From Tribonema minus (taxonomy: Eukaryota; Sar; Xanthophyceae; Tribonematales; Tribonemataceae), in assembly GCA_017506865.1 (NCBI GenBank), contig JAFCMP010000045.1:1-64000 (forward strand): 64,000 bases of DNA, given 5' to 3'. The notes beneath the pieces are model-generated. The model did not search any database, was not told the DNA's origin, and saw only the letters and a program-made list of their open reading frames with translations. A program made the translations under genes and the position numbers. Positions 9,828 to 37,250 of the stretch are shown here, one piece after another; the first letter of the stretch is position 1; each line of letters opens with the position of its first letter.

Positions 9828-12625
9828 GAGGCACTATGCAGTCCAGATATGCGACCGGAGCACACTGTTGTAAATATCTGGTAGAGATGCTGAAGGTGCC
9901 ATAGCCGATTGCCCATGCTACCCCGTACGTTGTGCAATCACTGTGGTACAGCAACAGCAGGGGTCACAACTACCGCGCTTTCACAGCGACAAATACCCAC
10001 CAATCCCTCCCTCCTGACCGACAGGCACCTGAGAACTGGTACTTCAGGAGTTTTCATGGAAGTTTCACCACAGTCACTGGTTGTGCCGATCAGCTGAATT
10101 GCTTGGGGCGTTTAATGACACTTCTGAAGTATGTAATTACACAAAGCTCTCCACATGGGCTCAACACAAACACCACATGTCCTGCAGCATAGTACAGCTG
10201 CAACGGCCCAATGCATGCGGCCTCCCATGCAACCACGTTCCATACCAAATGATGTACCACTCCGTCTGCAGCCTGGGCATGTTATGATCTGTGCCATGCC
10301 TGCGGCGGCCTCAGGCTGCGGCAGCATCCCAGTGCAATTCCACGCCTCTTGCAGCTCTTACTTGCCGCTTTCGCGCGGGACAGTCAGAGTGACTGTATGA
10401 TGCCTGCAGCATCACGTTTGTGTGGCATGAGCGTGGATGGCGCTAAAACACGCTGCTGTGGCAGTGCTCAAGTCCTTGACTCAGGGGTTCTTGGCGAAAT
10501 TGGGTGCCACCTGCACGCGCCAAAAGAAGTGGGAGAGGAGAATGGGGGTGAGGGGGGGGGGGCTGCTGAGGGCAGCGCGCTGCAGAACGATTCGCGGAGC
10601 ACTGAAGCAGACGCTGCCGTAAATGTGGACAGTTGTGCAATTGAATTAAAATAAATGGATGCAAAGCGCATATCATACTGCTCTCAACCAGCTTGCAAGG
10701 TGCCCATCGAACAGTAATGCCTGGCGACGCAGTGAAGCATCTCTGCATTCTGGGTTTGCAAGTTGCGCATGTCCACCCACATGTGCCGACGCAAGTGCAT
10801 TGCACAAGTCTTGATAGTGCCATGCCTCAACAATGACTGGGCGCACACGTGCAACAGGCTGCTGCTGCACAAACGGGTAGGCGACCAGTGCGTGATGCAT
10901 GCCTGGAGCATGAGTGTGCGGCATTGTCATGAAGCTGCTGCAGTGCTTCCCATGTTCTCTCACCATGAATGTATGGACATTAACATGAACTTGTGTGATC
11001 ACTTGGCTGCGCAGCTCTGTGCGCCTGTGGTGGACCACAAGCTCCCGTAGGGTCGTCAACAATGGTCGGGTTCAAGTTGAAGAAGCTGCTCATGACACAC
11101 AAAGATGATGGTGCGCAATATGTAGTCGGTGCCGGGCTGGCATGCACACACGAGCAGTGCTCTTACTGTACCGTGGTGCATGATGCAGCATGCACAGCGG
11201 TAGGGATGAATCATCGATCGTGTAATTTGCACGGATGCGAAACCAATTTGTACATGTACAAGAACTCACTGCTGTTGGACATTTGCAGTAGTGCGACACT
11301 CTGTCTGGTGACACTCAGTAACAGGCTGAAAGCATTGATGACTAACAACCCATCTCACAATTACTTTGTTGAGGTGCAATCAACAGCAATCCTCTTTCTG
11401 TTGGCGCGCTCCGTAACATGCTGTAGGCACAACTAACTAACAACCCATCTCACAATTACTTTGGTGAGGTGCAATTAACAGCAGTTCAGAGGATGGTGAA
11501 GACTCACAATTACATCAAGATCAAGCCAGGACCCGTCCTCTGCTTCCTCCTCCTCGTCATACTCCAGCCCGCCGCCGCACTCGTTGCCATGAGCGCCTGC
11601 AAAACACACATGCACAGGCTCTCTGTGAATTTGACCTTAAAAGGAGTCATCACACAGAAGTTCAGGACACTGCGCGTGGTGTCACTGCCACCCACTTCGG
11701 ATCTTGCAGCACCTCAATACCTGCACATTATCAAACCGCACTCAGCAAGCCATCTGCATACTCCAAATTATCAACGATGGCAGATATTATCTTTTTCGGC
11801 AGCTGCGCAGTACTCGAGCGAATGCCTACACCTCGGGCCAAACATAGCAATGCTCATGACTCATTGAGAGCTGCAACTGGAATTATCTGTGCTTGCGTTT
11901 TCTGCATCTGCCCTGTTCCCATGTGCCAGTACGCAGAAGTGCAAAGTGGTGGGTGTTACAGCAGCCCTCGACTCCCAGTGCGATCAACGGTTTCCACATG
12001 GAGCACCAGCAGCAGTGATACAGACACAGGGACCTGAACGGCCAGGTAGCATTGCTCTTCAAATGAATCATATGTGCAGATCAAACCATTCCTGACAGTG
12101 CAGCGCACAGTCCGCCGGGTGGCTGGGCAAGCGCACTGCCTCATTGCACTGATAAACCGGTGCCTGCACTGCTGTAGCGACAAGTTATTAATGATGTTCT
12201 GCCACAGGAGGCTCTATGTCGTTATGTGCAGCAACACGAGCAATGGCATTGACCACACCTCCAACTCCTGTCTCTTCAAGCTCAATTGCGACAGCTATTT
12301 AAAAGTGCACTGTTGGAGTATGGACCTCACTCATATTCTTAGTGTATGATTCGTGTCAGCACTGATTAGTTGCATGTTACGTGATGAAGTACTTGCGACT
12401 ACATGGTGAGAATGGTCGTTACATAACGGTTACATTTCTCTGGATTCTATTAGTAAATACTACTGTTCGTTGTTCTGGTCTGGCGCGGCACCTTCGCTGG
12501 CGCCTGCGGGCTGCCTGCGGCAGGTCTACGTTTGTCTCCTCTCTGCACGGTCTGTGCGTATTCCCAAGTAACACCTGAGCCAGTCGTGCTGCCGCTGACA
12601 GTGCTGCCCTCCCTGAGTTTTGGGG
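9828..12625 (-). pseudogene. Segmental duplication copy A: decayed multi-exon gene of unknown function
   Basis: Collinear with 44458-47975. Compared with that copy it lacks about 240 bp near 11100 (holding two exon candidates) and about 800 bp near 11790 (holding one). It has a frame-changing extra base in the shared exon near 11040 and an extra ~250 bp at about 12310-12565. The block 11491-11784 is much better conserved than the rest and keeps the acidic exon (11596-11508, minus: ECGGGLEYDEEEE then AEDGSWLDLDV). The left part also contains the start of the GSTVSGSTTGSG exon at its far end, directly abutting the DNA methyltransferase remnant. The loss of exons argues for a pseudogene; function unknown. 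Confidence 0.6.
11341..11485. repeat. Local tandem duplication in copy A, period ~95 bp
   Basis: ACTAACAACCCATCTCACAA occurs at 11341 and 11436, each followed by TTACTTTG and GAGGTGCAAT. Copy B at 46263 has a single unit, so the duplication arose after the two segments separated. Confidence 0.7.
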
Positions 12626-13480
12626 CTGAAGTCTCCAGCGGTGGACCCCCATGCACTGACTTCAGCATGACAGGCAAATGGTGCTCTCAGAAGGGCATAC
12701 AGTGCATCACCAGCATCTGCAGGTCTCAGCGGGGATCAGCACAGTGTGCATGGTGCTATTGGAGAACGTGGTGGGATTCCTGAGCGCAGCAGAGTTCCAG
12801 CAGACTCTAGACCTTGCTCAGGGCTTAGGGTTTGACCACAGCCACAACGTCATCAGTGGCAACGACTGCGGCCTGCCTACAAAGCGGCGCCGTGTTTTCA
12901 TCATGTTCACGCGTGGCCGCCAGGGTGACGGCAAGCTTGCGCGTGATGACAAAGCGGATTGGGGGGGGTGCACGAGCGGCTGAGAGCACTTCTTGCTGCG
13001 GAAAAAGGGGTGGAGGGATATCAGAGCGTTGCTGACGCCATCAGCGCGCATGACCGCCCATATTTTCGTTTTTGCGTGCGCAACACCAAAGCGCCAGAGA
13101 TTTTAGATACAACGCAGCCATGCCCCACGCTAAGAGGATCGGTATGGCAGCAACCGCACGCAGGGTCAGACAGCACAACCGGCTCCTTACGGCACAACCC
13201 TGCAAGCGCAACGCAGGACCCAAATGAGGTGGCGGCGGCAACGCACCTCACATGGGGGGAGTTGTTGGCGGTCAGCACGTTCTCTACGTACAACTTGTTG
13301 AACTGGCCAGAGCCACAGCGCGGCGACCGCAAAGTCAATATGCAAATGCTGGCAAATACGGTACCGCCGCGCATGGCTCACTACGTCTGGGACGCTCTGT
13401 TCAGAGCGGGCGCACTGAACCTGGTGGGTCGCTGCAGAAGCGCAGAGGCTCAACGGCATCAACCTCACACGCTGACATAG
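12595..13480 (+). other. Cytosine-5 DNA methyltransferase remnant (broken)
   Basis: Hallmarks of the C5 methyltransferase catalytic domain appear in order: SGGPPCTDFS (motif IV with the catalytic Pro-Cys) near 12635, LLENVVGF (motif VI Glu-Asn-Val) near 12760, a GNDCGLPTKRRRVF segment (motif VIII-like) near 12860, and a C-terminal MLANTVPPRMAHYVW block (motif X-like) near 13360. Motif I and the N-terminus are not seen, so the gene is partial as well as broken. It lies on the same strand as, and runs without an obvious boundary into, the Ty3/gypsy remnant. It is therefore treated here as a probable passenger or domain of that element; an independent host gene fragment is the alternative. Decayed, with a few breaks. 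Confidence 0.75.
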
Positions 13481-13931
13481 CGGCAGAGTTAGATGCGCAG
13501 AACGCGCGACTGCAGGCGGTGCAGGTGCGGCGCGTATCTGCAGCTCGCGAGTTACAGCAGTCGCCAGCGGTGGTGGAGGCGGCGGTGGATGTGAAGCTCG
13601 CATTAGCAGCCCTAGCTGAGCACTGCCCCAAGTGGGCGGTAGCTTACAGCACTTGCTGGGGCACTTTGCTCTTGACACAGCAGCAACGTTACATCGACGA
13701 GCGAGCTGCCGGCAACAACGCTGCTGCGGGCACGGTGGAGCCAGTAGCAGAATTCAGAGCGCACATTTAACAGCGCTGAGGGTTCAATGAAGTTGAAGTT
13801 CAACATGAACGGCCTGGCTGCAGATACAGCTGAATGGCTGGAGCGGTTGGCTCTGGCAGACATTGGGTGGATGTGTGCAGCTCATAAAGCGCGCGCAGCC
13901 ACAACTATTGGCGGCGAAGCAGCAGATGAGC

Positions 13932-13955
13932 TCAACTTCAACTTCAACTTCAACT
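13932..13955. repeat. (TCAACT)4 hexanucleotide repeat
   Basis: Four perfect copies of TCAACT inside the gag-like region of the gypsy remnant. Confidence 0.9.
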
Positions 13956-16439
13956 GCCTCAGGCTCTGGCAGAAAGAGCTTTGAGCGCTCAACGAGTCAG
14001 CAGCAGGGGCAACCGCAACTTCAACGGATCTACCAACAAACGGCAAGAGCAAACGCACGGAGGCGGAGGCAGAGGTTGCGCGCGCGACGCTCCGGCGGCG
14101 GCTGCGCGCCAAGCTGGCGCCAGTACTCATGCCGGCGGTGCGGCAACAGGCTTGCATCGCGATGATAGCTACCGCCGCGGCAGCCCTGGGGGTGGAGGTC
14201 ACCGGGGACGCTGCTCAGGCAGCAACGCTATTGCACTGTGGGTGGTCGTTAGGCCTGTTTGGCCAAGCGCCGGTGAGCAGGAATCCTGCGGTGCAGGAGG
14301 TCTTGGAGCATGCACGGCGGGTGCTGCTGCCACACCTGCTCAAGGTCAATGTGGAGATCGAGGGCTGGACGGCAGATCAGGTCGCCCGCCTAATCATCTC
14401 ACTGCAGCACTACGCAGCAGACTTCAGCAAGGACATTGTCAAGTGGGACCTAGGGTACTGCAAAACCCTCCCATTTCGCATAGAGCTACAAGACGGCGCT
14501 CACCCCGTAGCAGATCTGCCATACCGTTGCAGCCCACAGATGACAGCGCTCATCCGGATTGAGGTGGACAAGCTGCTCGCGGTGGGCATCATCAGACCGT
14601 CACAGTCAGAATGGAGCTCACCGGTTGTCGGGGTGATGACACCTGACGGCACGGCGCGCATAACGGTCAGCTAAAGGCGGCTCAACGCAATGATCATCAT
14701 TCTAAAAGTCCCGATCCCCATGATTGAGGACATCTTGAACGCGCTAGGCGGCGCCCAGAAATTTCTGGGCATAGACATCAGCGGAGCCTTCTTTGTGTCG
14801 GCAATTGATCAGTCAACAATTCTGCTGACCGCCATGGCAACGTCATTCGGCTTATACGAGTGGACAAGGTGCCCGCAGGGCCCAGCTGGCGCTCCTGGGC
14901 ACTTCACGCGGCCCATGGAGATAGTGTTACAGGGGCTAGACAGAGTGCAGTCGTTCATTGATGACGTCATAGTGCACTCCCCGGACATCAACACCCACAT
15001 AGCAGACCTCCAAGCGCTAATGGAGAGAATGCGCAAGCAGGGCATCAAGCTGGCTCCGGCAAAGATGCACATCGGATGCACATGCATCAAATTCTTCGGT
15101 CACAGAGTGGAGGCCAACGCCATCCGGCCTGTCAGTGACCCAGAAAAGGTTTCAGCATTGTTGGACATGCCCATACCCGATGACTTGTCGGCTCTTAAGA
15201 GCTGGCTAGGGCTGGCCAACTACTATCGGCGGTTTGTAAAGAGCATGGCGGAGGTGATAGCGCCGCTGACGGCGCTCATGTCGAAAGACGTGCCATTTGT
15301 GATGAGCGCTGCTGAGCTGGCTGCCATCGAGGAGGTCAGCATGGCACTTTCACTTCATGCACTTGTGGTCTACCCAGATCATGTGGCCGCAGCCAGTGGC
15401 GAACGTCCTTTCATCCTAGCAACAGACGCGCCCAAGCTCGGGCTTGGCGCAGTAGTGTTGCAGTCAGATGTGCAAGGGGTCGAGCATCCCATAGCATTTG
15501 CCAGCCTGGCAACGCTTAAGCATCAGAACTGGACAACCAGAAATTTAGAGGCGGGGGCGGTAGTGTTCAGGGTCAAGAAGTTCAGACACATCTTGTGGGG
15601 CACCCCCTTTGTCATCGACACAGATCACACAGCACTGTTGTGGCTGGAGAGCTGCAAGGACAAGACAGCGCGACTTGCGCGCTGGTTTGAGTTCCTGGGG
15701 GCTTTCCCACACATCATCGGTACAAAGCAGGGGAGCGCAACGGCAATGCAGATGGGTTCAGCCAGAACCCTATGCCCTCTACAGCAGCAGATGTGGCCGA
15801 TGAGGCTGCAGATGAGCTGTTGGAGGCATACACTATCAGAGTCAGCATGGACCCACAACAACACGATGCCACGTGCCGACTGGCGGCACACATGTTGAAA
15901 GATCTGCACTAAGATACACACGTGCATTGAACTTGACAGCGACGACGGTGACGGCAATGTTGGCGCGCATGGCTCAGCGGCATCCCGACTTGGGGACTGG
16001 TCGCGGTTCAGCAAGCGCGTTGGCAACGCAGAGCGCCCCGGAGTTACCCACATGCATGTGGTGATGCTGACGCGGCGCCAGCCAGCCTGGCACTAGCGCT
16101 GGGGGAAGTGGCGGGCGCGAGTGATGGCGCACTTGGTGGCAAAATGGCGAGTGCGGCAGTGGCGGCGCGGCATGAAAGTGCTGCACCCGCTGTGGCCGCC
16201 AAGCAAGCAGGCAACGCTGCCGCAGTAGCGCTCAGCGCAGCAGCTGAGCAGCAGCAGCCAAGTCAACGACTGACTCAGCGGCACGCCCTTATACTGCAGC
16301 AGCAAGCAGCACCGCTGCCGCGTGACTGAAAGGGTGAGGTGGTATGATACAGCACGGGGGGCTGAGGCTCCCGCGGCCATGACAGCTACAGCGCATTCCG
16401 CAGCGGCAGGAGGGGGACAAGCGGCGGGCATGGCTGCTG

Positions 16440-16805
16440 TAGCCAAGCTCAAGGCGGTAGGTGACACGGCGGCGCGGCGCCCCGGCGCTGCGCAAGTCAG
16501 CTGCACCCTTGGCATTTCAGCGGCGCAGCGCTCAGGCGCAGTGCTGCTTGACAGCATTCACGATGCGGCGGCGCAGCACTCCGGCGCAGCGCAGGCCAGC
16601 AACAGACCCAGCAGCAACAACGCAGCAGCGCAGCGCTCCGGCGCAGCGCAGCTTGGCGACAATGACGGCGCGGCCGCGCAGCGCCCCGGCGCAGCGCATC
16701 CCAGCAGCTTAATTGGCGGCTTGGCAGCGCAGCACTCCGGTGCAGCGCAGCTCAGCGGCACCAACGGCGCGGCGGCGCAGTGCTCCGGCGCTGCGCAAGT
16801 CGCCA
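16440..16805. repeat. GC-rich minisatellite, ~7 units of about 48-57 bp
   Basis: Each unit has the core GCAGCGCAG(C/A)(G/A)CTCCGGCGCAGCGCAG or a close variant, followed by a variable spacer, giving an (AAQRSGAAQ)-like peptide on the plus strand. It lies between the RNase H and integrase regions of the gypsy remnant. The repeat opens frames on both strands, which explains the Cys/Ala-rich minus-strand frames here. Confidence 0.85.
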
Positions 16806-18557
16806 CGGAGGCGGATGTAGGCCCGGAGGCACAGTCGCTTGGCGACATGCATGTCTACGGCGGATTGGCGGGCAGCACAAGACGCGGACGCATTTTGCGC
16901 AGCCATGATGGCGCATTTGGCGGATGCGCATGCGCTGCAGCTGTTGCCAATTGACAAAGCACTGCAGTCGCAGGTGAAACAGCACCGCGCAGCTTGCAGC
17001 ATGGAGTGGGTTGGGGGCGCAAAGTTGCCATGTCACAATGACATGAGTATGCTTGGGGGGGCTGGTTCACCCATTTTGGTGATACCAAAGGCGCTGCGGA
17101 ACCAAGTTCTGCATTGCCTACATGGTGAGGTGTGGGCGGGACACCAGGGGGTACGGCGCACAATGGAGTTAGTGCAGAGACATGGCTGGTGGCCGGGCTG
17201 GTCAGGTGATGCCACATTCTGGGCGGAGCACTGCCTGCCATGTCAAGCACGCAAGGGCGGCAAGCACAGCAGCATGTCCACCATCTACAGGGAGCTGCCG
17301 CCGCATGCCTTCCACACGGTCTCAACAGACATCTTCGGCCCATCATGATTGCCATTATCCAAGGAGGGGTACATGTACATGCACGTATTCAGCTGCCTAC
17401 TTACAGGCCATGTGTCATTGTACGCGGTCAGGGCGGGGGAAAACACGGCGGTCACGGCAGCAGAGCAACTTGTAGATGAGTTCAGCACTCTATACGGCAT
17501 GCCCCACAGTCTGCTCAGTGACTGAGGCAGCCAGTACACGGCAGACTCCGGATGTGGCGCGGGAGGTGTACCGCGCGATGGGCATCACTCTACACGACCG
17601 CGTACCACCCACAGTGTAACGGCAGGGTGGAGCGCTTTATGCGCACGCTGGCACAGATGCTGGCAATCGCGGTCAGCGAGTCACATAGTGACTGGGACAT
17701 CGTCAAGTGGCTTAAGCACTTTGCTTTTGCTCACAACTCTCATGTCAATCAGTCTACGGGATTTTCACCGTTCATGATGTTGGTGATGGGGCGGGAGCCT
17801 AAGGTGGCTCTACACACGGTTTTGGGGGCAGTGCTCAGGGGTTCAGAGCCTGCCGGTCTCAGCGCAAGGGCCATAGTACATGATATGCAAGCGTGGCAGC
17901 GAGCTGCGTTCGAGCTGGTGTCTTGACGCTCAGAGTTGAAGCGTGTCAGTGAGCGCATTGTGCGCAACAACGCCGAGCTAGCCGACACGTTCAACTTGCG
18001 CAATGAGGCAGAACAGGGGGATTTGGTGTGGGTTTACTCCCCACCATCAACGCACAAGGCGGATTCGCGGGAGCTGTTTGGCGAGGAGTGGAAAGCAGTT
18101 CTCAGCAAGAAGCTGCTGGACTTGTGGGTGGGGCCCTACAAGGTTCTAGCGGTGGGGCCTATCTGTGCGGGAAAGGAGCTGGTGCAATCTAATGTACTGC
18201 TCATTGACGGGGCGGGCGGGCCAACGCATGTGTCCACATGGCACACAAAACGGTGTCGTGATCCGGGTGGTAGCAAATGTAAGCCGCAAGGACTACCGGG
18301 TGGATATGCCCGATACCTCCTCAGTTGCAATCCACTCGCGGCACCAGCGCCGGGTTCGCTCACAGCAGATGATGTCACATGGGCATCTGATCGACACGGG
18401 GTAGAGGCGGTAGTGGGGCACAGAGTCCTACGGGATTGCAAAGGCCGGCCTGGCTCACTACAGTACCTGGTGTGGTGGGAAGGCGACCACATTGCAGATA
18501 GCTATCTGGGAGGATGCCAATATGTTAGATGCATGCGAGCATGCAACGGCTGAGTAC

Positions 18558-19517
18558 GTATGGACTTGTATTTATAAAGGCCCAAGGGAGGCCGGGTTGC
18601 CTATGCAATCGAAATGCTTGCGTCAACGCAGCAGCCTAGTCTGCGCTGTGTCCTAGGAGCTTGGATACCGGCGCTGCAACACAGCCCAGCATTCGCGCTC
18701 CACGTGTGTACGCCATGACGCGCTCCGCCAACTCCCGCGCCAGCGACATGCTCAGCTCAATGAGGATCTGACGCTTAGCTAACCCGGCCTTGCGTAACAC
18801 ATCTGCCTTCCCCCCCCCTGAGCACAGTGCTGAATGCGTTGCCAATTCCTTGATAAAAAGTCTTGTCTGCTTGCCCAGCCGTCCGTACGACTCCTGCACA
18901 AATACCAGTGGTACAAAAGCCCAAGATGACGTCAAGGTGCCGGTGTGGTGCTTGACCTTCGCGTCCTCCCCCATCCAAGCAGCATAGCCGTCCGTGTTCG
19001 AGGCATTTGTTTTGCCTGTCAGGTACAAGCTCACTGTGGGCGCGCGCACACTTGTGTCTAGCACTATTCCCTTGTTACGGTATGCACTGCTAAAGTGCAG
19101 ACAACTTGAACCTGGGTCAATGACTGTGTCCGCCCGATACTCCGGTACCTTGAAGACGCTAGCGTCCTCTGAGTCATTGCGCACAATAGAGACATGGTGC
19201 TGTCTCAAGATGCGCTGCAGGCACCGCTTTTGGGCAGTGTGTGTCGCGTTGTGCCCCCGTATGTGCTGGCTGGGGCAGCTGATCGAATGCGTGGAGGTGG
19301 GGCTCACGTCACTGCACCGCCATTGGCACACCTCGCCCTGTATGCCCCACCCGTCTAATAGTATGAAGATCGCAACCAAAATCATCGTGGCTGCTGCCAT
19401 GCTGGACATTGGTGCTGCACCCGGCGGTCATTCAATTTGGGAGTGGGCAGCACGCTCATCCACGACATGGCCCGGACGCACGCTGACTCCGCAGCTGCGC
19501 CATGACCCGCGCGCTAG
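18558..19517 (-). mobile_element. 5'-truncated LINE copy (REL-endonuclease type)
   Basis: Matches the last ~930 bp of the LINE at 33237-37237, including its 3' tail. The open frame 19409-18636 encodes the C-terminal zinc-finger and endonuclease part only (CQWRC...H...C, then GHN and the GIVLDTSV stretch). It begins abruptly at CTAGCGC (19517), typical of incomplete reverse transcription. The 3' end (minus-strand ...CAAGTCCATAC) abuts GTAC in the chromodomain region of the gypsy remnant, so this LINE inserted into or beside it. Relative to the longer copy it carries small in-frame insertions and substitutions. No clear target-site duplication was found. Confidence 0.85.
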
Positions 19518-20212: not shown

Positions 20213-21337
20213 TCAAATGATGATTGCTGCAAGAGAGGCCATCTCGGTCGGTTGATCGCCGAGGTTAGCAGTGCTGCCCTGCCCTAGCTGGCTGAAGAAT
20301 CCAAAGCCCCAGCATTTGACAGTTGAATCATCCAGAAGGGCACAAGTGTGTTCGGCACCTGCGGCGATGGCTTTTGCCGTCCTGTTCGACCCCAGATGGA
20401 TAGCGCTGACTGGAGGCGAGCTGAGGTGAGCAGTGCTGCCCTGCCCCAGCTGACCAAAGTCCCCCTTGCCCCAGCACTTGACCGTGGAATCATCTAGAAG
20501 GGCGCAAGTGTGATTATAACCTGTGGCGATGGCTTTTGCTGTTCTGCCCAACCCCAGGTTGATGGCGCTGACTGGGGGCGAGCTGACGTCATCAGGAGTA
20601 CTGCCTTGCCCCAGCTGACCATAGTAGCCGTAGCCCCAGCACTTGACTGTGGCATCATCTAGGATGGCGCACGTGAAAATAGTACCTGTGGCAATGGCTT
20701 TTGCCATTCTGCCCAACCCAAGGTTGATGGCTTCGTTTGCGGGAGAGGAGAGGCTATCATGGCTATGCAGCCCCAGCTGACCCGAAGCTCCGTAGCCCCA
20801 GCACTTGACAGTAGAGTGATCCAGAAGTGCACACGTGTGATAGCCACCCGTGGCGATGGCTTTTGCTGTTCTGCCCAACCCCAGGTTGATGGCGCTGCTT
20901 GGGGGCGAGCTGAGGTCAGTAGTGTTGCCCTGCCCCAGCTGACCTTCGGCGCCGCCGCCCCAGCACTTGATGGTGGCATCATCTAAAAGGGCGCATGTGT
21001 GTTCTTCCCCTGTGGCAATGGCTTTTGCCTTCCTGCCTGGCCCCAGGTTGGTGGCGCTGCTTGGGGGTGAGCTGAGGTCAGTAGTGCTGCCCTGCCCCAG
21101 CCGACCATGATCTCCTTTACCCCAGCACTTGACCGTGAAGTCAACTAGTAAAGTGCATGTGTCTTCAAGACCTATGGCAATGGCTCTCGCCGTTCTGCCC
21201 AACCCTAGGTTGACAACGCTGCGTGGTGGCGACAGGAGATCTTCAAGGCTGCCCTGCCCCAGCTGACCCCAAGCTCCATGGCCCCAGCACTTGACGGTGG
21301 AGTCATTTAGAATGGCGCACGTGTCAGTTCCGCCTGA
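20213..21337 (-). CDS. RCC1-repeat protein, large 3' exon (seven repeats)
   Basis: The exon starts after a GTTTTCAG acceptor at 21338 and encodes about 374 residues ending at a stop at 20213. Seven ~51-residue repeats follow the pattern HTCALLDDSTVKCWGxGxxGQLGQGST, each with a Cys pair (TCA and KCWG). Seven repeats match a complete seven-bladed RCC1 beta-propeller. The Cys-bearing KCWG variant is typical of extracellular RCC1-like propellers of algae and bacteria rather than nuclear RCC1; a cell-surface location is inferred. No guanine-exchange function can be claimed. Upstream candidate exons on the same strand encode a membrane segment (23463-23342) and a Pro-Thr linker (24960-24817). The repeats are also similar at DNA level (~153-bp units), so copy number may vary. 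Confidence 0.85.
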   Translation of the reverse strand, partial: SGGTDTCAILNDSTVKCWGHGAWGQLGQGSLEDLLSPPRSVVNLGLGRTARAIAIGLEDTCTLLVDFTVKCWGKGDHGRLGQGSTTDLSSPPSSATNLGPGRKAKAIATGEEHTCALLDDATIKCWGGGAEGQLGQGNTTDLSSPPSSAINLGLGRTAKAIATGGYHTCALLDHSTVKCWGYGASGQLGLHSHDSLSSPANEAINLGLGRMAKAIATGTIFTCAILDDATVKCWGYGYYGQLGQGSTPDDVSSPPVSAINLGLGRTAKAIATGYNHTCALLDDSTVKCWGKGDFGQLGQGSTAHLSSPPVSAIHLGSNRTAKAIAAGAEHTCALLDDSTVKCWGFGFFSQLGQGSTANLGDQPTEMASLAAIII

Positions 21338-22048
21338 AAACACGTTATAAGACGCATACAATCAGTCAACTTCATGCGGCAGATCATCTTGCAGCCCCAT
21401 ACAGAAACCGTGCTAGGTTGCGCACAATATCCGTTAAGCCTAGAACTGACTGTGGAAACATCTAGACGCCGTGTGTACATGCTTTAGCTACTAGTATATA
21501 CTGTATATAAAATAGTGTCTGGCCTGAGAGGAGGTTTCAGGATTAAATTCAGGTACCAAAAGAGCTGCAAAGGAACCTCTGGTCTATATCAGTCATCATG
21601 ATACGGGAACTTTGATGAACTCAGTGACTGTCATGGAAGAGACGACACTCAGGCTGCAGCAGCCTGGACCGCAGCGACAGAGCGGGGCACCCAACCAGAG
21701 CCAACTTAAGAATGTTAAACGTCGATTGTGGGCACTCAAATGCCTCCGCCCCACAAGCAGTGCGTAGTATGCAAGGCTTAAGCCAGTAACGCCGTGATGT
21801 CATGCTGCCCATTTCGTATAGTGGACCCATGCTTTTCTGGCTTCTGGACCAGTTTTTCTCAGGGACAATTACTGCCTGCCCAAAACGTTCATGTATGTAG
21901 GCATGCAGCGCGCATCAAATTGCACAGGCAGCGTTTGGGGCTTAAAGCGAATTATAGCCTCATGCTGTTCAAGGCTTGTTGTGTGCATCTGAAACACTTG
22001 TGTCGTTAGAAAGACACACCAGCTTCACACATACTGCCAGTGTAGTAG

Positions 22049-31868: not shown

Positions 31869-33218
31869 CGGGAAATACCATCAGCAGTCCCATTGAGTTT
31901 GCCTGGCACGTGGCGCGCATTCAAACTCCACCCTCCAATCAGTTCGACTGCACCCAACAAGCGCAACAACCCTCCATTCCTAGGGTCTGCGGCCCCCCCA
32001 CCTTTTTGAACCCAACCCACTGCAGAGGTGTTGTCCCCTCGCAGCAGCACCACCCCCCCTGGGACAGGGGGTGCATGGTTTTCCACCACCACCATCACCC
32101 AAGCCGTCATCACCATCCCCACCAGCTCAAGCAAGTTGATATGTATCGAACCGTCGCCCACCTTGACCTTCGTCCCCTTGTTGAGACGACTTGTCTGCTC
32201 TACCGTCAAGTCATATCGCCACCATACTCCAGTGACCTCGCAAAACCCTCCAATCGCCGTGTAGCTCGCGTCAGACCACCACTGGCGATCTGCCTTGCGT
32301 TTCACGAGGGCCGCTATGGGCATGCTCAGTGCGGCTGTCCCTACCCGGGGCCCACTGCCCACCGCCAAAACACCAAGTCCTTGAGTGCCTCTGCGCCTAT
32401 CTCTATGGCTGCACCTCCTGAGTCTTTCGTAGTGCATTGACCTCCTTTGAGGAGACCCCGCAACCGCCAAACAAAAAACTTTCTGGCCCGAACGCCGTAT
32501 GTGGCCCAGGACACCTTGCCCAACAGGCTCCACAACTCTTTCCGCCGAGCCTGCTGCCGGTGTGGCTGCCAAGATTCCAGCAGCGTCTGAAAAGCAGATC
32601 GTTTGTCTGCCAGCATTCTTATCACCATCGCTTCAGTATCAACCTCCCAACCCAGCACCGTCATCGTCGAATCCCAGTTTGTCACCTTGTTCTTTGATAT
32701 CGCAGGCGGCAACCCCTCCTGCGGCTCGCCAAGCAACCGAAAATGGGCGTGGGCCGCGCTGCGAGTCACTGCAAGCAGCGCTTCCTGGTCCCATTCTACC
32801 ATGACCATGATCAAGTCGTCCACATACATGCGTGCCCATACTGGGTCGGAAGGCCCACCTCCCTGTACGCGGCGTCGGGCTCTGTCGGCCAACGGCACCG
32901 GTACCACCTGCCGCGGGCTCACCGCTGGCACCACCGTTACGTGTGACACGAATTGAGCGGCCGCGAGTCCCGGGATTGGTCCTTCGCCCGGCGCCTCTTG
33001 TTGAACCGACCACTCTATTGCCCCGCCGGCCAGGCTCCACCACCCCGGTGAAGACCGCCAACCGAACTGCAACCGCAGGTCCACAACCACCAGATCATTG
33101 TACCTTGTAGCCGAGCAATGGGCCTCTTACGTCGAGCGCCAACTGACGAAACGCGGACTTCACGTCCATCTTCGAAATCAAAATGCGTTTGCGTGGCCAT
33201 GCCTGCCGTAACGACCAT
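31697..33218 (-). mobile_element. Reverse transcriptase (3' part) and RNase H of the DIRS-type element
   Basis: The RT part has a MDVKSAFRQLALDV-type motif A near 33170 and the YVDDLIMVMVE active-site motif near 32820. RNase H follows with DASYTAIGGF, HINLLELVG and RGDNTSAVGWV, the DIRS-type arrangement. The N-terminal RT motifs lie on the far side of the nested LINE, at the end of the gag-side frame. Confidence 0.85.
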
Positions 33219-33223
33219 ATCCT

Positions 33224-33236
33224 GTACAGCATCGCC
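33224..33236. repeat. Target-site duplication of the nested LINE, left copy
   Basis: GTACAGCATCGCC, identical to 37238-37250; both belong to the same spot of the DIRS-type reverse transcriptase (minus-strand GGCGATGCTGTAC). Confidence 0.93.
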
Positions 33237-36200
33237 AGACCAATGAGGCGGATCTACTGCTGCTGCGGTTCACCACGACTGCCAACCCCTTCCGCACTCA
33301 GCTGCAGTGCACCCAGTGGGCACGGCTAGTGGAGCACGCCACACGACTACTGGCGGACGCCACAGACAGTGCACGTGAGGCGGCACGGGTGCGCCTCCAC
33401 CATGGTGCCGGGGCGTTTGCTCATCAGGTTTCTCAGACTCTAGTGCAGCGCGGCTACAGGCTGCTGCACCTGCTAGCAGCGATGGCCTTTGGTAGGCAAC
33501 CGGAGGGAACCGGTATGCCGCCTGCGGCCCGGCTGGCAGCGTTGCTGTCTGGCGACTTCGCGGAGCTACTGAGAAAGACGCTGTCAGCAGCAGCGGCGCT
33601 GCGGGCCCCCAAACCAAACAACGCAGCTATGGCGTCGGCACAAACGAACTTCGATGCCGACTGGACGGAGGCTGACTCCAGGCAGCAAACAGCATGCGCT
33701 GCCCTCTCAGGCAAGCGACGGGGGGTAGGCTTGGCTGCCGCACGACTAGAGGCGCGTGAAGCATGCGCCCCAGCAGACGAGGTCACGGCACAGGTGCTGG
33801 CAGCAAAGCACCCTGAAACTGGCACCCGGCCGGGGGTAGTCGATACGCCAATGGAGCAAGTGCGCGGCCTGGTACGCGACGCCCGGCGGCACTGCTTACA
33901 CAGCGCAGGGGTGGCAACGACCACCGGGCCAGCTGGCAGCGGCAGTCCTGTCTTCGAATCGGGTCAGGCACATGATCACAGCGATAGGCCTGAGGATGCT
34001 GCCAGCGCAGCCGGACGGCGCCTCGAGGTGGAGGCGGCAGACATACTGTCGACCTTGTCCGCAGCAGGGGCGGGGAAGGCAGGAGGGCTGGACGGCCTAC
34101 GCTATGAACACCTCTTGATGGCCGCTGGGCCTGGTGCACCAGTGAAAGCAGCCACCCGCCCCGTGAGCAGTGCCTCGCCAGGACTAGCTGGTGATTCAGA
34201 ATCAGATGTGATGGAACCGGCATTCGCTCATCACCTGGCCAAGGTGTTCACGACGCTGCTTGTTGAGCCCGAACTGCTGCCGGAGCAATCGCAACGGCTT
34301 CTCCGCGCCGCGGCCCTCTCAGGCATAGGACAGAAGCGGCGTCCGATCGCCTGCTCCAGTGTCTGGCGCAGACTCCTCGGGTCCACAGCGGCACGGAGTG
34401 TCAAGGGCAAGATATCGGGGCTGCTGGCCTCCATGTCGCAGTTTGGCGTAGGATACCGGTCTGGCGTCGAGCATGTGGCAGCGCGCGCGCGCGTGTGGCA
34501 CGAGCTGTATGGCACCACTATCCAACTGGACTGTGAGAACGCATTTAACAGTGTGGATCGCGCCGCCATTGTGCGGGGGCTTATGCTCTTCTGTCCGGAG
34601 CTGCTCCCGCACTTTGAGTCCGTATACTGTGGTGACACTGCCCCAGAGATGCGGGTGGAGGTGAACGGTGAAGCTCGCATTATCTGCTCCCACCTAGGGT
34701 GCCAGCAAGGGGACCCTCTAGGGCCGCTGTACTTTGCAGTGGCAGCGGCCTTCCTACTCTTCTACCCTGATGGAGTGAATGCGACGCCCGGCAGTATGCC
34801 GGCCTACGGCCACAGCACAGCGGAACCGCCAGCCCCGCACTGCGCTTTCCTGGATGACCTCAACGTGCTGCAAGCTGCCTACTTCGACGATGCAGCGGCC
34901 GCTGGGGTGGCAGAGGTGATCCGCCGGCTGGCGGCAGGGGGCCTACGCGTTCGACCAGACAAGTCGCTGGCCATCGCCATGCGCGGCACAGTGTTTGATG
35001 AAGCGGCCAGAGCACGCCTGCGCGCCCTTGACATACCGTTTGTGGACACCACCATGCCAGAATCCAGTCAGGGCTTTACATCGGTCGGGGTACCGGTAGG
35101 GCACCCAGCCTATGTGCACGCTGCCATGAGCAAGCATCTTGTCGACGCAGGGACATGGCGATTGTCGTGGCAGCTAGCTGGAATGGCGCGGCATCACCTA
35201 CAGGCAGCACAGTTCATTCTACGCAGGTCACTGACGAAGCGCATGGGCTTCTTAGCTCGGGTCGTTGACACGGCTTTGAGTGAGACATGGTTGCACGCGT
35301 TTGACGGGTTCTGTGCATGGACGCTCGAACGCATGCTGCATCTGCACGGCTGCTCTACCGCGGCAGCCATGAAGTCACACCTGCTGGCCGCCTGCACTGC
35401 TGGTGACAATGAGGAAGCCAGCAGTGGCAGCGTGCTGGTATTGCCGCGCTTGGGCCCGCCAGAACTCACGGACATCGCAGTGCCACTGCGGGCGTCACGG
35501 TTGCCGGAGCGACGAGGCGGTCTGGGCATGCCGCTTTTGGGGCTACTGGCACCAGCCGCATACACGGCCCAGGCATGCACAACACTGAGGCCGGCAATAA
35601 TTCATGCCACTGTGGCAGCAGGGGCCCTGAGGCTCGGCACTGACGAACACGGCGCAGTCACCTGGTTCGCGCAGCACTCATGCGCAATACGCGAGGACCA
35701 GGGACTGCCGCCAATCATCGAGGCCGTGCGACGCTCTACGCGAGCGCTGACAGCTGATGGCGGCGAAAAATCACGCACAGCTGTGGCCGAGCAGCTCCCA
35801 GCATCGTTGCTACGGTGGGCAGCAGATACGACGGCCGCAGCGTCGACGCTCCCCACTGCGGTGCAAGCGATCTACGCCGCAACTGCCGTCACGGAGACAG
35901 TGACCACTGAGCCAGCCCCACACACCCACGGCATTGTGCCTGGCGCCGAGGCGGCCGCTGCGGCGGCGACCGTACCTGGCCCTCAAGCCGCTGCCGCGGC
36001 TGCCCCTTCCACGCCCGCTAAAACACAAACTAGCGCGGAAGAAAGCAGCTGCAGCGGCGGGCAGGAGGACGACGACGACGACTGGGAGGCCTATGCTGAT
36101 GAGATCTGCAGGAAGGTAGTGCCCCGCCGCCGGCGCGGTCACTTCACGCACGGACTACAAGCCGGCCTTTCAAATGTTCTTCGACGTCAATACGAGGATT

Positions 36201-37237
36201 GCCTGGTGGAGGACCTAGAGGCTGCCTCGGCTGGTGCCGTGGGCAAGCCGACGCAGGCTGCACCTATTGGTGACTCGCGCGACACCAGCCGCCGCCGCCA
36301 ACAGGCTAGCGCACGGGTCCTGGCGCAGCTGCGCAGCCAGCGTGCGTCCGGGGCAATGGCGTGGATGAGCGTGCCACCCACTGCCAATGACCGCCCGGGT
36401 GCGGCGCCCATGTCCAGTATGGCAGCAGCCACGATGATTTTGATTGCGATCTTCATAGACGGGTGGGGCATACAGGGCGAGGTGTGCCCATGGCGGTGCA
36501 GTGATGTGAGCCCCACCTCCACGCATGCGATCAGCTGCCCCAGCCAGCACATACGGGGGCACAACGCGACACACACTGCCCAAAAGCGGTGCCTGCAGCG
36601 CATCTTGAGACAGCACCATGTCTCTATTGTCCGCAATGAGGACGCTAGCGTCTTCAAGGTACCGGGGTATCGGGCGGACACAGTCATTGACCCAGGGTGT
36701 CTGCACTTTAGCAGTGCATACCGTAACAAGGGAATAGTGCTAGACACAAGTGTGCGCGCGCCCACAGCGAGCTCGAACCTGACAGGCAGAACAAATGCCT
36801 CGAACACGGACGGCTATGCTGCTGGGGTGGGGGAGGACGCGAAGGTCAAGCACCACACCGGCACCTTGACGTCATCTTGGGCTTTTGTGCCATTCGTGCA
36901 GGAGTCGTACGGACGGCTGGGCAAGCAGACAAGCCTTTTTGTTAAGGAGTTGGCAATGCACTCAGCACTGTGCTCAGGGGGGGGGAAGGCAGATGTGTTA
37001 CGCAAGGCCGGGTTAGCTAAGCGTCAGATCCTCATTGAGCTGAGCATATCGCTGGCGCGGGAGTTGGCGGAGCGCGTTATGGCGTACACACGTGGAGCGC
37101 GAATGCTGGGCTGTGTTGCGGCGCCGGTATCCAAGCTCCTAGGGCACAGCGCAGACTAGGCTGCTGCGTTGACGCAAGCTTTTCGATTGCATAGGCAACC
37201 CGGCCTCCCTTGGGCCTTTATAAATACAAGTCCATAC
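33237..37237 (+). mobile_element. LINE with reverse transcriptase and REL endonuclease, inserted in the DIRS-type element
   Basis: 4001 bp between perfect 13-bp target-site duplications. The open frame enters from the 5' junction (33242) without a start codon, so the copy is 5'-truncated; it runs 1300-odd codons to 37159. The 78-bp 3' tail ends CTTTATAAATACAAGTCCATAC with no poly-A. Insertion is opposite in orientation to the host element. The intact frame and clean duplication show it is younger than the DIRS-type element it sits in. A 960-bp relative is at 18558-19517. Confidence 0.93.
33242..37159 (+). CDS. LINE ORF: RT, CCHC zinc finger, REL-type endonuclease (5'-truncated)
   Basis: The reverse transcriptase core spans about 34000-35000: QLDCENAFNSVDRAAI (motif A with Asp), GCQQGDPLGPLYFA (motif B) and CAFLDDLNVL (motif C, LDD). 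A thumb-like region with RRGGLGMPLLGLLAPAAY follows, then an Ala-rich and acidic linker (QEDDDDDWEAYADE). The C-terminal domain has a CPWRC...H...C zinc finger, GHN (RHN-like) and a PD-(D/E)xK-like GIVLDTSV stretch with a downstream Lys (DAKVKHH). This layout matches R2/CRE-type LINEs whose endonuclease lies behind the RT and which often choose specific targets. No apurinic-type endonuclease is seen, and any N-terminal domain is missing because of truncation. No natural start codon is present; the first codons read from the junction. Confidence 0.88.
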   Translation, partial: NEADLLLLRFTTTANPFRTQLQCTQWARLVEHATRLLADATDSAREAARVRLHHGAGAFAHQVSQTLVQRGYRLLHLLAAMAFGRQPEGTGMPPAARLAALLSGDFAELLRKTLSAAAALRAPKPNNAAMASAQTNFDADWTEADSRQQTACAALSGKRRGVGLAAARLEAREACAPADEVTAQVLAAKHPETGTRPGVVDTPMEQVRGLVRDARRHCLHSAGVATTTGPAGSGSPVFESGQAHDHSDRPEDAASAAGRRLEVEAADILSTLSAAGAGKAGGLDGLRYEHLLMAAGPGAPVKAATRPVSSASPGLAGDSESDVMEPAFAHHLAKVFTTLLVEPELLPEQSQRLLRAAALSGIGQKRRPIACSSVWRRLLGSTAARSVKGKISGLLASMSQFGVGYRSGVEHVAARARVWHELYGTTIQLDCENAFNSVDRAAIVRGLMLFCPELLPHFESVYCGDTAPEMRVEVNGEARIICSHLGCQQGDPLGPLYFAVAAAFLLFYPDGVNATPGSMPAYGHSTAEPPAPHCAFLDDLNVLQAAYFDDAAAAGVAEVIRRLAAGGLRVRPDKSLAIAMRGTVFDEAARARLRALDIPFVDTTMPESSQGFTSVGVPVGHPAYVHAAMSKHLVDAGTWRLSWQLAGMARHHLQAAQFILRRSLTKRMGFLARVVDTALSETWLHAFDGFCAWTLERMLHLHGCSTAAAMKSHLLAACTAGDNEEASSGSVLVLPRLGPPELTDIAVPLRASRLPERRGGLGMPLLGLLAPAAYTAQACTTLRPAIIHATVAAGALRLGTDEHGAVTWFAQHSCAIREDQGLPPIIEAVRRSTRALTADGGEKSRTAVAEQLPASLLRWAADTTAAASTLPTAVQAIYAATAVTETVTTEPAPHTHGIVPGAEAAAAAATVPGPQAAAAAAPSTPAKTQTSAEESSCSGGQEDDDDDWEAYADEICRKVVPRRRRGHFTHGLQAGLSNVLRRQYEDCLVEDLEAASAGAVGKPTQAAPIGDSRDTSRRRQQASARVLAQLRSQRASGAMAWMSVPPTANDRPGAAPMSSMAAATMILIAIFIDGWGIQGEVCPWRCSDVSPTSTHAISCPSQHIRGHNATHTAQKRCLQRILRQHHVSIVRNEDASVFKVPGYRADTVIDPGCLHFSSAYRNKGIVLDTSVRAPTASSNLTGRTNASNTDGYAAGVGEDAKVKHHTGTLTSSWAFVPFVQESYGRLGKQTSLFVKELAMHSALCSGGGKADVLRKAGLAKRQILIELSISLARELAERVMAYTRGARMLGCVAAPVSKLLGHSAD

Positions 37238-37250
37238 GTACAGCATCGCC
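37238..37250. repeat. Target-site duplication of the nested LINE, right copy
   Basis: GTACAGCATCGCC, identical to 33224-33236. Confidence 0.93.

Follow-up and report, generated by a model that had tools for sequence, protein, structure and literature searches.

Descriptions of retrotransposons with cytosine-5 DNA methyltransferases (C5-DNMTs, below DNMTs) come from dinoflagellates and a charophyte, and most of these enzymes are of the DNMT3 class. They were reported in Gypsy, DIRS and LINE elements by de Mendoza 2018 (PMC5890265), and DNMT3s of streptophyte and dinoflagellate Copia and DIRS elements are mentioned in PMC12344493. Here a locus of Tribonema minus, a xanthophyte (stramenopile alga), is described, in which a truncated Ty3/gypsy retrotransposon of a family designated A carries part of a DNMT. 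It lies in the window, i.e., the whole analysed stretch of 64,000 nucleotides (GCA_017506865.1, contig JAFCMP010000045.1, positions 1 to 64,000; contig C45 in the numbering used here), which was compared with the genome (158.2 Mb, 554 contigs). The first-pass annotation of this stretch proposed a DNMT remnant running into a chromodomain Ty3/gypsy element and referred to earlier reports of such captures; one exists for a Gypsy element of Klebsormidium with a DNMT3-class enzyme (PMC5890265).

This KnitGypsy-Dnmt3 of Klebsormidium nitens is the closest described system. Like the Tribonema elements, it is multi-copy and has an intronless C5-DNMT, under purifying selection, inside a Gypsy-type Pol (PMC5890265). 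Its enzyme belongs to DNMT3 and its repeats are arranged as in DIRS (PMC5890265), whereas family A has plain long terminal repeats (LTRs) of ~366 bp in direct orientation. The Tribonema enzymes differ in that DNMT2 ranks first in their profile searches, followed by DNMT1 for type I and by bacterial enzymes for type II; DNMT3 is not among the matches. Further differences are two domain orders and the chromodomain of family A, a word absent from the main text of PMC5890265. SymbioDIRS-Dnmt3 and SymbioLINE-Dnmt of Symbiodinium are similar in abundance, with hundreds of retrotransposon DNMTs per algal genome, but these are DIRS and LINE, not LTR/Gypsy elements, and their enzymes are DNMT3 or of an orphan class (PMC5890265). 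DIRS elements with a Dam-like adenine methyltransferase also have a methyltransferase in the retrotransposon polyprotein (PMC5890265, PMC6338049); however, they are tyrosine-recombinase elements and the adenine methylase is structurally unrelated to C5-DNMTs (PMC5890265).

In stramenopiles, chromodomain- and Tudor-bearing Gypsy elements of Ectocarpus share the C-terminal chromatin readers, and a Tudor Gypsy homologue is reported in T. minus (PMC12477816). The Ectocarpus chromodomain lineages are unrelated to chromoviruses; the elements carry readers and a NADAR domain, but the available passages of that work report no C5-DNMT in Gypsy Pol, and the DNA methyltransferase mentioned there is of the N4-cytosine/N6-adenine type in a Sola1 DNA transposon (PMC12477816). 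Methylase-encoding retrotransposons, adenine and cytosine types lumped, occur in stramenopiles among others (PMC6338049). Titles, abstract beginnings and passages, outside subscription journals and Repbase, contained no description of a Gypsy element with a C5-DNMT from Tribonema or other stramenopiles. As far as known, this is a third host lineage for retrotransposon C5-DNMTs; the most unusual points are the writer-plus-reader architecture and a dead subfamily.

It is close to certain that the window copy is a dead Ty3/gypsy fragment, that the Pol of its family encodes a DNMT between a protease-like motif and the reverse transcriptase (RT) and a chromodomain behind the integrase, that the DNMT is integral to the element, and that several lineages carry one. 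This structural claim is made because LTR pairs enclose both DNMT and pol in five of six copies and 4-bp target duplications accompany five of the six pairs. The parts of the window copy are as follows.

12620..18557, plus strand: truncated Ty3/gypsy copy of family A (matching ends, 87-92% identity to relatives)
12620..13440, plus strand: cytosine-5 DNMT, motifs IV to X-like, frameshifted (PF00145 and motifs)
12640-12654, plus strand: motif GGPPC, placed in sequence
12759-12779, plus strand: motif LENVVGF, placed in sequence
12882-12899, plus strand: motif KRRRVF, placed in sequence
13349-13369, plus strand: motif LANTVPP (motif X-like), placed in sequence
13441..14476, plus strand: DNMT-RT linker, no gag domain recognised
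14477..15109, plus strand: RT (RVT_1 at 14720-15109, E 2.8e-18; N-terminal part by eye against relatives)
14954-14968, plus strand: FIDD box of RT (motif placement)
15401..15706, plus strand: RNase H of Ty3/gypsy type (RT_RNaseH, PF17917, E 2.1e-27; same place in the genome RNase H search)
16463..16797, plus strand: tandem repeat in pol, units of ~99-105 bp; like units lie upstream of the DNMT in the C550 copy
17082..17255, plus strand: integrase zinc-binding domain (Integrase_H2C2, PF17921, E 7.6e-17)
17256..17926, plus strand: integrase core, split over frames, limits approximate (rve_3, E 0.015, below cut-off)
18398..18557, plus strand: chromodomain with internal frameshift (E 0.068, 13.5 bits, below the cut-off of 25.1)

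In a genome search with positions 12400-18700, 12620 is the exact start of at least 8 aligned family pieces and 18557 the exact end of at least 9, and the long pieces are 87-92% identical to the window copy. These positions are therefore the fragment limits, and the truncation of the DNMT lies 5' of motif IV. Motifs I-III and all sequence 5' of them are gone, the 3' edge lies just past the chromodomain, and both LTRs are lost. Thus, of the extent annotated at first (12595-18557), the end was retained and the start moved to 12620.

The DNMT motifs noticed at first (PPC, ENV, motif X-like) are confirmed by their positions and by a PF00145 match on the window frame 12660-12983 (E 4.5e-7, 30.1 bits, cut-off 22); in the C550 relative the entire domain lies within a single open frame. 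RT, RNase H and integrase follow on the same strand, as had been predicted, in the Ty3/gypsy order (PF00078, PF17917, PF17921 and PF00665 in sequence). The integrase family rve (PF00665) scores above its cut-off in the family frames L043, L042 and L040. The predicted chromodomain, below cut-off in the window, exceeds 25.1 bits in all four family frames of one Pfam scan (30-33 bits), and the chromovirus trait of a chromodomain behind the integrase is found in these four; a fifth family frame (C396, L043), which stops inside the domain, gave no Pfam chromodomain match. Methylation writer and chromatin reader thus occur in one family, as was supposed. The 'gag-like' part placed between DNMT and RT was not confirmed: no Pfam family was found in window frames 13228-13770 and 13985-14674, the corresponding stretch of the C75 relative is a low-complexity linker, and Pfam recognised no gag domain.

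No LTRs were found within the loci first examined, because the LTR-bounded copies mostly measure 10-15 kb. The LTR was found independently, with the 3' flank of a family copy as genome query, which returned the 3' LTR and its 5' partner; flanks past the chromodomain align among copies over ~1160 bp and then diverge. Six LTR-bounded copies were obtained.

C550 115160-130283, minus strand: LTR identity 99.5%
C52 203704-219126, plus strand: LTR identity 97.5%
C515 731667-743665, minus strand: LTR identity 95.9%
C517 544996-574916, minus strand: with insert, LTR identity 98.1%
C540 24760-34974, minus strand: old copy, LTR identity 87.2%
C531 351359-356618, minus strand: rearranged, LTR identity 94.1%

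In the first five, DNMT and pol lie inside the LTRs with the DNMT upstream of RT, while the pol-side fragment of C531 retains only about the last 80 bp of the DNMT. Target duplications of 4 bp (CCAG, TGCT, TTAC, CTAC, GCAA), read off the sequence ends with the edge moved by 1-2 bases in C515, C517 and C540, are present at five pairs, and none is clear at C531. The C550 copy has a protease-like DSGCGAS motif ahead of the DNMT in the same open frame, and the order of family A is protease-like motif, DNMT, RT, RNase H, integrase, chromodomain. In the primer-binding-site region, TGGAGGAGTC starts within 2-3 nt after the 5' LTR. An adjoining tRNA-like stretch of 19 bases, with at most one mismatch allowed, occurs beside four LTRs and nowhere else, tRNA genes included; a genome search for the primer tRNA with this stretch returned the elements themselves as sole matches.

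Among the matches listed, body matches of at least 80% occur on 14 other contigs: nine have DNMT and pol in line, four are pol-side fragments without the DNMT core and one is a DNMT fragment. The window copy alone, lacking boundary features and LTRs, could also be taken for a chance neighbourhood of an old host DNMT gene fragment and an unrelated Gypsy remnant. This explanation is already refuted by the five LTR pairs that enclose both parts. The nine in-line copies also speak against it, as do 32 places of the genome where DNMT and RNase H are in a single open frame; its probability is negligible. The link suspected at first between DNMT and pol is thus real, and other family copies do keep the DNMT. 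The first-pass annotation also considered a terminal repeat between 13.4 and 14.3 kb that would separate the two parts; the LTR-bearing piece of C550 has no match anywhere in the window at E 1e-8. The copy was further called broken and old. Broken it is, but age does not describe the family as a whole: family A has young members, since one copy (C550) has LTRs that are 99.5% identical.

The association extends beyond family A. All genome counts are lower bounds, since each search scored the best candidates, e.g., 123 of 378 for PF00145 (hence at least 123 places) and 150 of 432 for RNase H. The first tables gave 186 DNMT places after merging, 62 of them in frames of at least 2000 codons; at 60 of the 186, RNase H follows downstream on the same strand at a distance of up to 6 kb, mostly 1.9-2.6 kb, against 2 with RNase H upstream and 1 with RNase H on the other strand. 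At 32 of these 60, RNase H is in an open frame of the same length. To the final count, three similarity searches contributed 81 entries (of 142 matches), 83 (of 126) and 22 (of 120); further pieces of a given place, and places present in another table, were left out or merged. All tables together yield 300 RNase H places and 362 places with a DNMT or a DNMT-like domain, a number that includes host genes such as L004. Of the 300, 236 are preceded by such a domain on the same strand at no more than 6 kb (controls: 3 downstream, 4 on the other strand), a share that does not represent a random sample of the Gypsy elements of the genome, half of the RNase H places coming from a search with a DNMT-bearing family member. 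Conversely, 235 of the 362 DNMT places have RNase H downstream.

Selected loci can be arranged in four types. The labels are our own, and protease (PR) and zinc-finger-like words were mostly placed by eye.

Type I, PR-DNMT-RT-RNase H-integrase: family A, L018 (C212) and, alike, C340; C75 shows the DNMT-RT-RNase H part
Type II, zinc-finger-like N-terminus, DNMT-PR-RT-RNase H: C89 (with integrase), C4, C23, C345
Type III, PR-DNMT-like-RT: C292, with the metagenomic relative P0012
Type IV, DNMT frames without pol seen in the stretch examined: L014, L016, L017 (C212, C312)

The metagenomic proteins P0001-P0003 also belong to type II and vary in how much of it they cover. Pfam protease matches were obtained solely in the C89 family, below cut-off; in family A and C340 the words DSGCGAS and DTGAS were identified by eye. 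The type IV frames (553, 721 and 1204 codons) possibly represent a further kind of mobile element or a host gene family. At least two domain orders, PR-DNMT-RT and DNMT-PR-RT, coexist in the genome. The C345 group was considered as a DNMT-less Gypsy contrast and rejected, as its sequence holds a DNMT with PPC and ENV that the first counts had missed. No viral relatives were found in viral_contigs with the C550 frame and P0002 as queries.

Two single loci have unusual arrangements. At C509:277630-278637 (minus strand), RNase H lies upstream of a DNMT, both within one frame of 1015 codons; this may be a third domain order. At C311:7477-7869 (plus strand), the open frame that contains RNase H extends over 6208 codons, roughly double what its relatives have.

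The class of the enzymes was approached with profiles from four rows for type I (two nearly alike) and three rows for type II, searched against PDB sequences. Both find DNMT2 first (1.2e-12 for type I, 1.3e-11 for type II); next come DNMT1 and bacterial enzymes for type I, and bacterial enzymes and, weakly, DNMT5 for type II. Neither profile found DNMT3 or DRM chains in PDB at E <= 10, whereas a DNMT3A query does find DNMT3 and DRM. The Tribonema retro-DNMTs are thus perhaps of a class different from DNMT3, as judged by profile similarity.

The first-pass annotation had suggested a phylogeny of the methyltransferase against host DNMTs. In a maximum-likelihood tree of 28 rows, type I forms one clade (99/99) and types II, III and IV another (96/93), while L004, a DNMT2-like host exon, groups with human DNMT2. 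The references comprised three named and seven bacterial-looking domains, with DNMT3A and DNMT1 on long branches. Two retro-DNMT clades are supported; the trees fix neither the donor nor the number of captures. A single ancient capture into Gypsy Pol, with a later shift of the DNMT within Pol, is given somewhat less than an even chance against two or more captures. It agrees with the approximately unbiased (AU) test, in which a single clade of all retro-DNMTs is not rejected (p 0.35); the two well-supported clades and the two domain orders stand against it. Trees with DNMT3A joined to either clade are not rejected by the AU test (p 0.22, 0.27).

Three short DNMT frames of 367-390 codons (L001, L002 and L003 on C223 and C181) form a separate observation. 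L001, the one compared, has M.HhaI as its closest PDB sequence (65 bits) and may have been acquired from bacteria or viruses, separately from the retro-DNMTs.

The motifs of the predicted enzymes were compared in an alignment. Six of the sequences (L007, L012, L018, L019, L029 and L071) have motif I, ENV and RxR conserved together with the cysteine of motif IV; motif IV has the form PPC, but APC in L029 and SSC in L071, and motif X is kept only loosely. The C292 subfamily is different. Its domain aligns with DNMTs (best DNMT-domain match 3e-17, PF00145 itself just 16 bits) and has motif I- and VIII-like words, with ENA in place of ENV. Relative to P0012, which is 61% identical over 802 residues and keeps ENV and a loop with a cysteine pair, C292 is 25 residues short around motif IV. 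At every one of the 27 near-identical places (98-100%) spanning this site, the length is exactly the shortened one, with no room for the loop. About 34 further matches of 62-69% identity to C292 mostly fall into two blocks that leave space for it. Because P0012 still has the loop with its cysteine pair, the loss in C292 looks derived.

From these near-identical copies it follows that catalysis is not needed everywhere. In general form, the DNMT could be kept for a non-catalytic job, such as DNA or RNA binding, a scaffold in Pol or a decoy for the host methylation system, with catalysis dispensable. The reading frames of C292, up to 3455 codons, and the apparently derived character of its loss agree with this. 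However, the aligned open type I and II copies keep the motif-IV cysteine (PPC, APC, SSC), ENV and RxR, and one close pair has a ratio of nonsynonymous to synonymous substitution (dN/dS) of 0.14; for the elements as a whole, the non-catalytic role is considered unlikely.

A catalytic role in the retrotransposon cycle could be realized as follows. The DNMT would be released from the polyprotein or would stay beside RT in the particle, and would methylate CpGs either in the double-stranded cDNA of the element itself or in a fresh insertion. Host DNMT5, HELLS and CDCA7, all reported in T. minus (PMC10538959), could then maintain the mark. New copies would enter the genome already resembling quiet, methylated repeats, and the integrase chromodomain would steer integration to such chromatin. 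The mechanism is supported because the motif-IV cysteine, ENV and RxR are kept in the aligned open type I and II copies and because dN/dS of the DNMT domain is 0.14 in the pair C89-C13 (at a synonymous divergence, dS, of 0.14). The ratio is 0.25 for C312-C212, a close pair of type IV, and 0.17-0.27 for three distant pairs in which dS is saturated; one pair was not computable. A precedent exists in the SymbioDIRS-Dnmt3 retrotransposon DNMTs, which methylate CpG de novo in yeast (PMC5890265). In the same assay, the Gypsy and LINE enzymes gave inconclusive results (PMC5890265).

A CpG footprint is also observed. Family A has transitions at 3.9% of CpG, about threefold the values for CpA (1.1%), CpC (1.5%) and CpT (1.3%), and transversions at CpG (1.2%) lie within the range of the other contexts (0.9-1.3%). 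These rates come from 36 pairwise comparisons of nine family-A copies, which are not mutually independent. CpG transitions are also raised in one type II pair and one type IV pair. CpG observed/expected in the elements (0.69-0.96, window 0.77) indicates no strong depletion.

Several observations weigh against the combined explanation. CpG transitions are raised too in two unrelated repeats of the window (3.5% vs 1.4-1.9%; 13.7% of 51 sites vs 1.4-2.7%). Since unrelated repeats are affected likewise, the CpG signal would reflect host methylation of repeats generally and not self-methylation; it fits a sign of host CG methylation. Two other close pairs have dN/dS of 0.53 and 0.61, little different from relaxed decay. 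The C292 subfamily reaches high copy number without the catalytic motif, the rest of the domain being kept. The KnitGypsy-Dnmt3 enzyme had no activity in yeast, a result deemed inconclusive there (PMC5890265). Finally, 64 of the 300 RNase H places have no DNMT upstream. Some of these have short frames or lie near contig ends; C224, C401 and C334, with frames above 2000 codons and no DNMT match, may be truly DNMT-less or may contain a DNMT too divergent to score.

Taken as a whole, structure plus the proposed mechanism is still regarded as the best explanation, with a probability of roughly 0.6 from the sequence data. Its parts differ in strength. The self-methylation step would have a little under an even chance, and the idea that writer and reader act together in one loop is tentative, rather doubtful at present. 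Alternatively, the DNMT could mark cDNA as a shield against host nucleases, deaminases or competing viruses and not for silencing of insertions. Protection of cDNA was put forward as speculation by de Mendoza 2018 (PMC5890265), and an antiviral use by Morozov 2019 (PMC6338049); this purpose seems improbable for the Tribonema enzymes.

In its broadest form, the proposed explanation would make the DNMT a standard part of Ty3/gypsy Pol in several Tribonema lineages, in at least two positions and with a reader integrase in family A. Retrotransposons, besides the genes of the host, would then write part of the CG methylation and use it for settling quietly, one subfamily having a dead DNMT kept for another role. 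This generalization is speculative and, in its entirety, not likely.

Why a transposon would methylate DNA becomes a question testable by comparison inside one genome, since this stramenopile combines hundreds of Gypsy places that carry a DNMT, a Pol in which a chromodomain is also present, two or more domain orders, a derived dead version and perhaps another DNMT class. There is also a consequence for annotation. Two T. minus proteins match the family DNMT with 98% and 87% identity over 40% and 32% of the query region; these gene models are pieces of family A, named hypothetical proteins. Because of such models, transposons could inflate host DNMT counts in this lineage.

The remaining features of the window lie downstream of the element.

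18554..19517, strand not assigned: unrelated dispersed repeat (~960 bp) adjoining the 3' end of the element; second copy inverted at 36306-37241, 92.7% identical
20213-21361, minus strand: RCC1-repeat protein with tandem 162-bp units
33212-37156, plus strand: open frame of 1315 codons with a weak RT match (3.4e-7)

The first 147 bp of the dispersed repeat match at least five other places with 97-99% identity. This 147-bp end is found inside the family copy of C41, and a 43-bp end of the repeat occurs in the 3' region of the C550 element. CpG observed/expected in the RCC1-repeat gene is 0.50, compared with 0.77 for the window. The frame at 33212-37156 adjoins a frame of 922 codons on the other strand and, given its weak match, may represent another retroelement of unsettled kind.

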